Below the pieces are notes generated by a model. It saw only the letters and a program-made list of their open reading frames with translations. It was not told where the DNA came from and ran no database searches. The translations under genes were made by a program, and so were the position numbers. Shown here one piece after another: positions 21,319 through 24,069 of a DNA stretch of 64,000 nt; position 1 is the first letter of the stretch; every line of letters starts with the position of its first letter. Source of the stretch: Brachyspira pilosicoli (lineage in GTDB: Bacteria; Spirochaetota; Brachyspiria; Brachyspirales; Brachyspiraceae); contig NZ_JAWLPU010000003.1 of assembly GCF_036997485.1 (NCBI RefSeq), forward strand, positions 186,001 to 250,000, written 5' to 3'.

Positions 21319-22674
21319 ATGGAAAAGATAAAAGAATATTTCAATGATTTTTTGGAGATAATATCAGAAAATGGAGAATATGCTGGGGTTGCTTTACTCA
21401 AAGGCAGTGTTTTTAGGGTTGATGATGAGCATAATGTAAGTATTATTTGTTCGGGTGATTTTGCTGCTAACCATATAAAGAAAGATTTTTTAGAGCGTAT
21501 AAAAAACTATTTAAAAGACAAGTGTTCGTATGATATAAACATTCAAGTATTAGTTGATGTAAATATTGTAAATAATGAAGAAGATAGTTTTAATAATGAT
21601 ATTGTAGAAATAGAATCAACAGAAGAAAACAATACAAAAAATAAATATAAATCTAATTTAAATGAATATTTCAAGTTTGACAATTTTATAGAGGGGAGTA
21701 ATAATAAATTTGTTTTTGCTGCTGCCAAATTGGTTGCAGAAAAACCAGGAAGAGAATACAATCCTCTTTATATATATGGAAGTGTGGGTATAGGTAAAAC
21801 TCATTTGCTTCAGGCTATTGGAAATTATTATTTAGAAAATAATCCAGATGCAAAAGTTCATTATATAGATGGAAGCGGATTTAGAGATGAATATATATAT
21901 GGCCTTCAAACTAAAAGACCTGATAATTTTAAAAAGAAATATAAATCTTTAGACATGTTTTTGCTTGATGATTTGCAATTGTTAGAAAGTGCTCAGGAGA
22001 CTTCTAAAGAGTTATTTGAGATATTTCAAGCTTTAGATAATGCTTGTAAACAGATGGTATTTGTTAGTGATAAACCTCCGAAAGAACTTAGAAATATAGA
22101 GGCGAGATTAAAAAACAGATTCGAAAAGAGTTTGATATTATCTATTGAGCCTCCGCAATATGAAACAAGGCTTGCTATAATAGAGAGAAAGTTGATTGAT
22201 TTAAATACAAACATTGATGAAGAAGTAATTAAATATATGGCAGAAAATATTACAACTGATGTTCGTAAGATTGAAGGTGCTATTAGGGCTTATTTGTCTG
22301 TGAGGGATTTGATGAAAATAACTCCTAATGTTGAAGAATGTGATAAGTTAAATATATTTAAAGATTATTTTACTAACAAACCAAAATTAAAAAATGCTAC
22401 TATAAAAGAAATAAAAAAAATGGTGGCTGATTATTATGGTATAGAAATGAATGCTTTTGACAGCAAAGACAGAACCAAATTTATAGCTAAAGTTAGACAT
22501 GTTGCTGTATACTTAGCTTGCGAATATTCTAAAAAATCGGTTACAGAAATAGGATTGGAGTTTAATAGAGATCATGCTTCTATTATACATGCAAGAGAAA
22601 AAATAAAAGAAGAGCTTAAAACAGATTCTCATATAGCAAGAGAAATTAATGATATAATATCTTCTATATCATAA
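21319..22674 (+). CDS. dnaA: Chromosomal replication initiator DnaA
   Basis: The 451-residue protein has DnaA domain I (1-85), a short acidic linker, and the AAA+ domain. Walker A is GSVGIGKTHLLQA (about 153) and Walker B is DMFLLDDLQLL (about 211), followed by sensor and arginine-finger regions (RLKNRFEKSL). The C-terminal DnaA-box-binding helix-turn-helix has VTEIGLEFNRDHASIIHARE (about 408-427). It binds oriC and opens it for replication. Its usual companions dnaN, recF and gyrase are not adjacent; a tail-anchored unknown lies upstream and the heat-shock operon downstream. No DnaA-box cluster is visible here. Confidence 0.93.
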   Translation: MEKIKEYFNDFLEIISENGEYAGVALLKGSVFRVDDEHNVSIICSGDFAANHIKKDFLERIKNYLKDKCSYDINIQVLVDVNIVNNEEDSFNNDIVEIESTEENNTKNKYKSNLNEYFKFDNFIEGSNNKFVFAAAKLVAEKPGREYNPLYIYGSVGIGKTHLLQAIGNYYLENNPDAKVHYIDGSGFRDEYIYGLQTKRPDNFKKKYKSLDMFLLDDLQLLESAQETSKELFEIFQALDNACKQMVFVSDKPPKELRNIEARLKNRFEKSLILSIEPPQYETRLAIIERKLIDLNTNIDEEVIKYMAENITTDVRKIEGAIRAYLSVRDLMKITPNVEECDKLNIFKDYFTNKPKLKNATIKEIKKMVADYYGIEMNAFDSKDRTKFIAKVRHVAVYLACEYSKKSVTEIGLEFNRDHASIIHAREKIKEELKTDSHIAREINDIISSIS

Positions 22675-22746: not shown

Positions 22747-22774
22747 TTGACATTTGTTTAAATTCTTATATAAT
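22747..22774 (+). promoter_or_regulatory. Perfect-consensus sigma-70 promoter of a candidate small RNA
   Basis: TTGACA (22747-22752) and TATAAT (22769-22774) are both perfect, with a 16-base spacer. The predicted start is near 22780, just ahead of the short transcript described at 22780-22856. It is the strongest housekeeping promoter I see in the window. Confidence 0.75.
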
Positions 22775-22779
22775 ACTAT

Positions 22780-22856
22780 TTGTATTGTTAAATAATACAA
22801 TTTTTCATAAACCTCCTTATCACCCTGCAGATCCTTTCTGGGGGTGATACTTTTTT
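22780..22856 (+). ncRNA. Candidate small RNA with exposed anti-Shine-Dalgarno stretch
   Basis: A compact transcript of about 77 bases is defined by the perfect promoter upstream and an intrinsic terminator. Stem 1 is TTGTATT/AATACAA (22780-22786 with 22794-22800, 7-base loop). An unpaired pyrimidine-rich linker follows with ACCTCCTTA (22811-22819), complementary to the Shine-Dalgarno TAAGGAGGT. Stem 2 is TATCACCC/GGGTGATA (22818-22825 with 22842-22849) with an inner CAGA/TCTG helix, followed by six T. I do not recognise a named RNA family. It could instead be a terminated leader of the grpE operon, whose ATG is 325 bases further on. Confidence 0.6.
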
Positions 22857-23098
22857 AAACACCTTTTTATAATTGAATGTATAATTATTAAACATATATT
22901 ATTTGTATAAATGTCTTATTATTAAACATAATAAATTATTAATGTTTTCTATATTTAATAAGTTTTAATATTTGTGTAATTTTAATAGCTCGTAAGTATC
23001 TTATAATAAAAAAAATTAATAATATAAAGCTATATTAATATTTTATAGCATTATTTTTCTATTTTTTAACTAAATGTAATAATGAAAATATAACTATT
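22857..23098. other. AT-rich gap between candidate small RNA and grpE promoter
   Basis: The whole dnaA-grpE gap is 22675-23180. This part holds no open frame, no DnaA-box cluster, and no CIRCE heat-shock element that I can see. It contains many TAATTATTAA-like words, typical of the local composition. Confidence 0.5.
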
Positions 23099-23114
23099 TG
23101 GCACGATTATTGCA
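23099..23114 (+). promoter_or_regulatory. Sigma-54-type promoter before grpE
   Basis: TGGCACG-ATTA-TTGCA matches the RpoN -24/-12 consensus at every defined position. The GG (23100-23101) and GC (23112-23113) doublets are separated by exactly 10 bases. Transcription would start near 23125, 55 bases before the grpE ATG. An alternative sigma-70 reading is TTGGCA (23098) and TATAGG with 16 bases between, a weaker match. No gene for RpoN or an enhancer-binding protein is in the window. Confidence 0.5.
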
Positions 23115-23180
23115 TATATTATAGGTGTAACTTCTGTAAATAATTAAAAGGAAATAAGAAGGAAACAAAAAGGAGATTAA

Positions 23181-23819
23181 ATGCAAGAAGAAGAAATGAA
23201 AGAAGGCAATGAAGCTGCTAGTAAGGGTAGTGAGGACATTGCAGAAAACAATTCTAATGCAGAAGCTAATGAAACTAATGAAGTTAATGAAGAACAAAAA
23301 GAGGCTTGTGAATGTTCTGAAAATAATGAAGATGAAATTAGCATTCTAAAAAAGAGAGTAGAAGAGTTAGAAAATGAAGTTTCTGATATGAAAGATAAAT
23401 ATATGCGTGCTATGGCAGAATCAGAAAATATTAGAAAGAGAACTGCCAAAGAAAAAGCTGACGGCATAAAGAGGGCTAATAAAGGTTTATTATTATCTCT
23501 TATCAATTTTATGGATAATTTTGAGAGAGCATTAAAATCTTTTGATAATGATGAAACTATAAAGGGAAGTGAATATTATAAGGGCGTAGAATTAATACAT
23601 AAACAGTTTATAGATTTTTTAACTGATAATGGTGTGAGCGAAATAGAGGCATTAGGAGAGGAGTTTGACCCTAATTTGCATGAGGCATTAACTATGATAG
23701 AAGTTCCTGATATTGATAAAGAGCAGGTTGTAGAAGTTTATGCTAAGGGCTACAAATTAAATGATGAACTTTTGAGAACAGCTAAGGTTGTGGTTGGAAA
23801 ACCAAAGACGGCTGAATAA
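23181..23819 (+). CDS. grpE: Nucleotide exchange factor GrpE
   Basis: The 212-residue protein begins with an acidic, disordered N-terminus (1-55), continues with a long coiled coil (about 55-110) and ends in the GrpE beta domain. Recognisable conserved stretches are YMRAMAESENIRKRTAKEK, LINFMDNFERAL and FDPNLHEALTMIE, with VVEVYAKGYKLNDELLRTAKVVV at the end. It releases ADP from DnaK. AAAGGAGATT precedes the ATG. It is the first gene of a grpE - small ORF - dnaK operon; dnaJ is not included. Confidence 0.97.
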   Translation: MQEEEMKEGNEAASKGSEDIAENNSNAEANETNEVNEEQKEACECSENNEDEISILKKRVEELENEVSDMKDKYMRAMAESENIRKRTAKEKADGIKRANKGLLLSLINFMDNFERALKSFDNDETIKGSEYYKGVELIHKQFIDFLTDNGVSEIEALGEEFDPNLHEALTMIEVPDIDKEQVVEVYAKGYKLNDELLRTAKVVVGKPKTAE

Positions 23820-23859: not shown

Positions 23860-24069
23860 ATGGCACATATTCAACTTTTTAGAGCTTATTTTGAACCTAA
23901 AGATTCAAAAAAAGAAAGCATAAATCATATTAATAAGGTTTTGCAAGATTTAACAGATGAGATTAACAGACATATAGAAAACAGAGAAGTTATAAATGTT
24001 GATCTTAATACATCACATTTAGGCAATGGGCATACTGAATATATTGTAAGCGTTCTAACGAAGAATTAG
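23860..24069 (+). CDS. Small hypothetical protein between grpE and dnaK
   Basis: A 69-residue open frame has a strong Shine-Dalgarno (AAGGAGA, 8 bases before the ATG), 40 bases after grpE and 57 before dnaK, so it is very probably translated. The protein is soluble and charged: an N-terminal strand MAHIQLFRAYFEP, a helix (about 16-40, KESINHINKVLQDLTDEINR), then DVNTSHLG-like VDLNTSHLGNGHTEYIVSVL. I do not recognise the family. Its place inside a chaperone operon suggests a stress or DnaK-linked role. Confidence 0.75.
   Translation: MAHIQLFRAYFEPKDSKKESINHINKVLQDLTDEINRHIENREVINVDLNTSHLGNGHTEYIVSVLTKN

Follow-up and report, generated by a model that had tools for sequence, protein, structure and literature searches.

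The roles usually associated with sigma-54 are in nitrogen, motility and the cell exterior. In Myxococcus xanthus, HsfA is an NtrC-like regulator and lonD has been linked to sigma-54; there a single lon gene is concerned in a species with many activators, whereas each Brachyspira genome has one activator and the gene set in question comprises grpE-dnaK, clpB, hsp20 and lon. HsfA-HsfB is named as a two-component system activating the heat-shock protease gene lonD in the title of Ueki and Inouye 2002 (among the references of PMC9548883), and the arrangement proposed here is similar in placing such a gene under two-component control. The small heat-shock gene ibpB of E. coli has a sigma-54 promoter (PMC4316790), as does hsp20 in Brachyspira; however, the main control in E. 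coli is through sigma-32, whilst in Brachyspira no HrcA was found among the genus genomes listed. In a different phylum, the Bacteroidota, sigma-54 control of GrpE and GroES is stated by a 2025 comparative study, in which Bacteroides and Flavobacterium are given as having a sigma-54-dependent GrpE (PMC12316311); the main text of that study contains no occurrence of Brachyspira, and the passages concerned describe no enhancer pairs.

The average spirochete has one or two sigma-54 activators, and Borrelia, with its Rrp2-RpoN-RpoS pathway, has one sigma-54 and one activator (PMC3162934). Borrelia and the gut-dwelling Brachyspira are both spirochetes with a single activator, but that of Borrelia, as that source describes it, controls RpoS and lipoproteins rather than chaperones. 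The B. hyodysenteriae genome paper, in the passage concerned, merely counts three alternative sigma factors (PMC2650404), and in the open-access literature we found no paper tying Brachyspira sigma-54 to chaperones, nor anything on the role of RpoN in the genus. On the basis of sequence elements, their conservation, their co-occurrence and gene content, we consider it highly probable (approximately 0.88) that a sigma-54 promoter drives the grpE-(69 aa ORF)-dnaK operon of Brachyspira pilosicoli, and that RpoN and one NtrC-type activator constitute a dedicated proteostasis circuit, which also serves clpB, hsp20 and, mostly, lon.

The grpE promoter element and its locus

The window (the whole 64,000 nt stretch analysed) has TGGCACGATTATTGCA at 23099-23114 on the forward strand, preceded by a T, with 10 bases separating the GG (23100-23101) from the GC (23112-23113); hence the arrangement that identifies a sigma-54 promoter, GG-N10-GC within a TGGCAY...TTGCW context, is present at grpE. 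The initial annotation had reported an exact consensus with this spacing 66 bases before grpE, and both the match and the distance were confirmed by checking positions, with the ATG at 23181; its grpE assignment is likewise supported by the Pfam match (Table 1). TGGCACGATTATTGCA occurs once in the window, with none expected from 100 shuffles, and across the genome (2,718,741 bases) TTGGCACRNNNATTGCA is matched without mismatch at one place only, by TTGGCACGATTATTGCA before grpE. The nearest named relatives of the encoded GrpE are from B. pilosicoli (98% and 93% identity over the best segments), followed by other Brachyspira.

Table 1. Features of the grpE-dnaK region in the window
Feature	Position	Strand	Basis
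Dyad 1, ATGTATAATTATTAAACAT, proposed activator site	22877..22895		Dyad matrix
Dyad 2, ATGTCTTATTATTAAACAT, begins 34 bp past dyad 1	22911..22929		Dyad matrix
Sigma-54 -24/-12 element of grpE, TTGGCACGATTATTGCA	23098..23114	+	Pattern match; GG/GC invariant in genus
TATA just 3' of -12 element	23115..23118	+	Nearly invariant in genus alignment
Predicted grpE transcription start	23125	+	Inferred from sigma-54 geometry, ~12 nt past the -12 GC
grpE	23181..23819	+	Pfam PF01025, 1.8e-49
69 aa ORF, grpE/dnaK interval	23860..24069	+	Open reading frame
dnaK, 641 aa	24127..26052	+	Named from sequence by recall

The locus runs from an ORF at 21319-22674, which we take to be dnaA, through a 500-base AT-rich gap to grpE, the 69 aa ORF and what is presumably dnaK. 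The 69 aa ORF is apparently found in relatives as well, judging from their upstream sequences, and has a sub-threshold profile match to CRS1_YhbY alone (E 0.078). The gap also contains a candidate small RNA (22747-22856), having a TTGACA...TATAAT promoter, a 5' hairpin, a terminator hairpin and a single-stranded CATAAACCTCCTTA with the anti-Shine-Dalgarno motif CCTCCTT; its core is kept in 22 of the 25 genus grpE loci. This candidate had no Rfam match at E values up to 5, and the Rfam search of the examined sequences likewise returned none.

Twenty-five of the 26 Brachyspira genomes in the genus set had a grpE match, and TTGGCA[CT][AG][AT]TT.TTGC[AT] is found upstream of the gene in all 25, although these come from related species and are hence not independent events. 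The element lies 30-88 bases 5' of the start codon, as chosen by script and in some cases picked mechanically. Offsets 0-5, 9-10 and 12-15 are invariant, and followed by a nearly invariant TATA, whilst the flanking sequence has diverged; the GG and GC doublets, proposed for alignment across related species, do not vary in any of the 25. Across the 80 grpE loci from named genomes, TGGCAYN5TTGCW was found within 1.8 kb upstream of grpE in 6/6 Brachyspira and 0/74 others. The genome without a grpE match (G017), rated as 99% complete, nevertheless has the clpB and hsp20 sigma-54 sites, and the missing gene may reflect an assembly gap.

Other genes carrying the promoter

Exact sites matching TTGGCAYN5TTGCW number 93 across the 26 genomes, against six for a reversed-pattern control. 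When sorted by downstream gene, 59 of these precede grpE (25), clpB (17), hsp20 (12) or lon (5); the clpB and hsp20 loci were gathered through the promoter pattern itself, such that these counts represent pattern-bearing genes only. Both genes are presumptively named from recognisable sequence, whilst the identity of lon is based on sequence and Pfam PF02190. A further 12 sites fall within a repeat hairpin and 22 elsewhere, most of them inside coding frames. The three exact sites in the genome studied here precede grpE, clpB and hsp20. None of its 67 one-mismatch sites represents a credible additional member, the sole intergenic example lacking the GC. Of 27 sites listed with up to two mismatches, 26 were placed (L050 was left out), and amongst these only L057 was not called as coding, besides grpE, clpB and hsp20; it was rejected as a further sigma-54 site, since a gene seems to begin within its sequence.

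A sigma-54 site is found at lon in 18 of the 25 genomes with a lon match, often as TTGGTAY, and in many genomes a sigma-70-like promoter follows it. The site is missing at lon in the five pilosicoli-group genomes, G001 and G019. By comparison with L333 and L335-L346, lon lacks the sigma-54 promoter and associated dyads in the pilosicoli group (L329-L332 and L334); having lost, or never gained, these elements, the pilosicoli-group gene is a natural experiment in regulon turnover.

By contrast, groES was rejected as a member: its start was placed at 21 of 24 loci (all but L224, L242 and L244), and in none of these 21 does a sigma-54 site lie 200 bp or less from it. The seven groES upstreams inspected have a TTGACT...TATAAT-like promoter, and the three-mismatch strings at -239 to -246 in seven loci look to be inside the preceding coding frame.

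The repeat hairpin is an intergenic element with TTGGCAC(A/G)TTT(C/T/A)TTGCA inside a long inverted repeat, the arms of which vary between genomes (L075, L083, L090, L093, L095, L101, L108, L120, L133 and L134). Tyrosine-recombinase-like ORFs and tandem repeats lie close to some copies. The TTGGCAC...TTGCA sites in these repeats have no dyads upstream, and the class was set apart.

RpoN, its activator and the paired upstream dyads

Whether rpoN and enhancer-binding proteins are encoded in the genome had been named as a check on the sigma-54 reading, and both are present: a search of this genome found a single rpoN gene (421 aa, with AID, CBD and DBD domains) and one true sigma-54 activator, composed of a receiver, an AAA+ and a Fis-type HTH domain. 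Four other weak matches in the genome have the appearance of AAA+ ATPases, of the Clp type or otherwise. Exactly one true activator was found in each of the 26 Brachyspira genomes (E below 1e-30), all with a G[SA]FTGA loop (GSFTGA in 22, GAFTGA in four), and its closest solved relatives are the NtrC-family proteins 4l4u and 1ny5. The activator gene lies directly downstream of that for a kinase, itself divergent from a gene that we take to encode peptide deformylase.

As the genes behind the promoter are those of the heat-shock response, the signal entering this circuit is probably protein damage; induction by heat would follow from this reading, and the signal could differ. A real circuit that instead responds to a metabolic or envelope signal is unlikely, yet deserves some weight: the profile matches of the kinase are to PAS, HisKA and HATPase only, with no known damage sensor amongst them, and sigma-54 serves other purposes in Borrelia and Leptospira, according to the sections of the literature concerned (PMC3162934, PMC12655853). 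However, the gene-proximal intergenic sites found precede chaperone or protease genes, and no other pathway stands out among them.

A second element, the 17 bp dyad TGTAT-N7-ATACA, usually found as a pair 32-34 bp apart, lies upstream of essentially all the sigma-54 promoters of grpE, clpB, hsp20 and lon. In a blind search for inverted repeats within 200 bases upstream, conducted per gene class, GTAT-N7-ATAC ranked top in clpB (15/17, against 0.10 expected) and hsp20 (10/12, against 0.27), and an equal geometry ranked first in lon (TGTT-N9-AACA) and grpE (ATGT-N11-ACAT). A palindromic matrix constructed from these dyads, applied to 300-base upstreams with a cut-off of 11 bits, detected them in 24/25 grpE, 17/17 clpB, 12/12 hsp20 and 17/18 lon sequences in-sample; leaving out one gene class at a time gave identical counts, with shuffle means of 0.14-0.34. 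The two upstreams missed at 300 bases carry pairs further out, at -345/-311 and -454/-422. Spacing is 34 at grpE and 32-33 in the other three gene classes (clpB, hsp20, lon); at hsp20 a spacing of 41 occurs in addition.

The only dyads exceeding 11 bits in the window are the two before grpE, and 218,468 bp of other loci from the same genome had one. None exceeded this score at the seven lon genes without a sigma-54 site (one reached 10.4 bits) or in the 24 groES upstreams. One hsp20 dyad in this genome is weak, at 5.0 bits, and the paired pattern matched 15 times genome-wide against 11 for the control; dyads and a sigma-54 element occur together in this genome at the three known promoters only. 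Elsewhere, one strong intergenic dyad lies near a putative lipoprotein gene (L354/L355).

Sites for NtrC-type activators lie far upstream at variable distances, paired around three helical turns apart. The pairs described here, found from -96 to -454, fit an enhancer, and their presence tracks that of the sigma-54 site at lon; furthermore, each genome in the genus has but one activator, equipped with a Fis-type HTH domain. It therefore seems improbable that the promoter is real but the dyads belong to a separate repressor or DNA-bending protein, with the activator working elsewhere or without them, even though the pairing of dyad and activator rests on co-occurrence, and one dyad adjoins the promoter, at -33/-34, in most clpB and hsp20 upstreams.

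Sigma-70, HrcA and the control of proteostasis in Brachyspira

A weaker overlapping sigma-70 reading of the grpE site, with TTGGCA as the -35 and a -10 box around 16-17 bases further on, gains from the similarity of TTGGCA to TTGACA and from the TATA-rich stretch downstream, but fails because no -10 box is conserved at the proper spacing (offsets 22-27 from the first T being conserved no better than the flanks across the 25 genus grpE upstreams), whilst bases not read by sigma-70, TTGC among them, are invariant, the sigma-70-like promoters of groES and lon in the genus differ in having TTGAC(A/T) and TATAAT-like boxes, and the upstream dyads are absent from groES and from lon genes without a sigma-54 site; we regard it as very improbable. 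A heat-shock operon under HrcA and CIRCE is rejected, both being absent: as noted in the initial annotation, there is no CIRCE near grpE, nor anywhere in the window with up to three mismatches allowed, and no hrcA was found in this genome. HrcA is present in 90 of the 247 genomes of the phylum, but all of these matches fall outside Brachyspira, with none among the 20 genus genomes listed.

The sigma-54 reading of the grpE promoter is strong because the promoter belongs to a set, with clpB, hsp20 and lon, having common dyads, a point missing from the initial annotation. In the circuit that we propose, RpoN-bearing RNA polymerase would form a closed complex on the grpE -24/-12 element, and the single NtrC-type activator, bound to the paired dyads upstream and phosphorylated by the PAS/HisKA/HATPase kinase encoded just before it, would open this complex via ATP hydrolysis. 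The same module would drive clpB and hsp20, plus lon in most species, such that transcription of these genes would depend on RpoN and on a phosphorelay responding to heat or misfolded protein.

RpoN is not the sole control of proteostasis, as many genomes have a sigma-70-like promoter at lon as well, and groES apparently relies on one. With groES and, in part, lon remaining on promoters of this type, basal and stress control seem to be split. The broader proposal, that sigma-54 is the genus-wide heat-shock sigma factor, with one activator and one kinase serving protein quality control only and replacing HrcA/CIRCE, and with lon gained or lost between species, is one that we only somewhat favour.

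Single heat-shock genes under sigma-54 are already known; a full RpoN circuit for dnaK, clpB, hsp20 and lon would be new. If correct, the heat-shock response would be wired in a new way, with enhancer control tying chaperone output to a kinase signal. The module shared by grpE, clpB, hsp20 and lon therefore points to RpoN as a regulator of proteostasis, which would give this sigma factor a clear job in Brachyspira.
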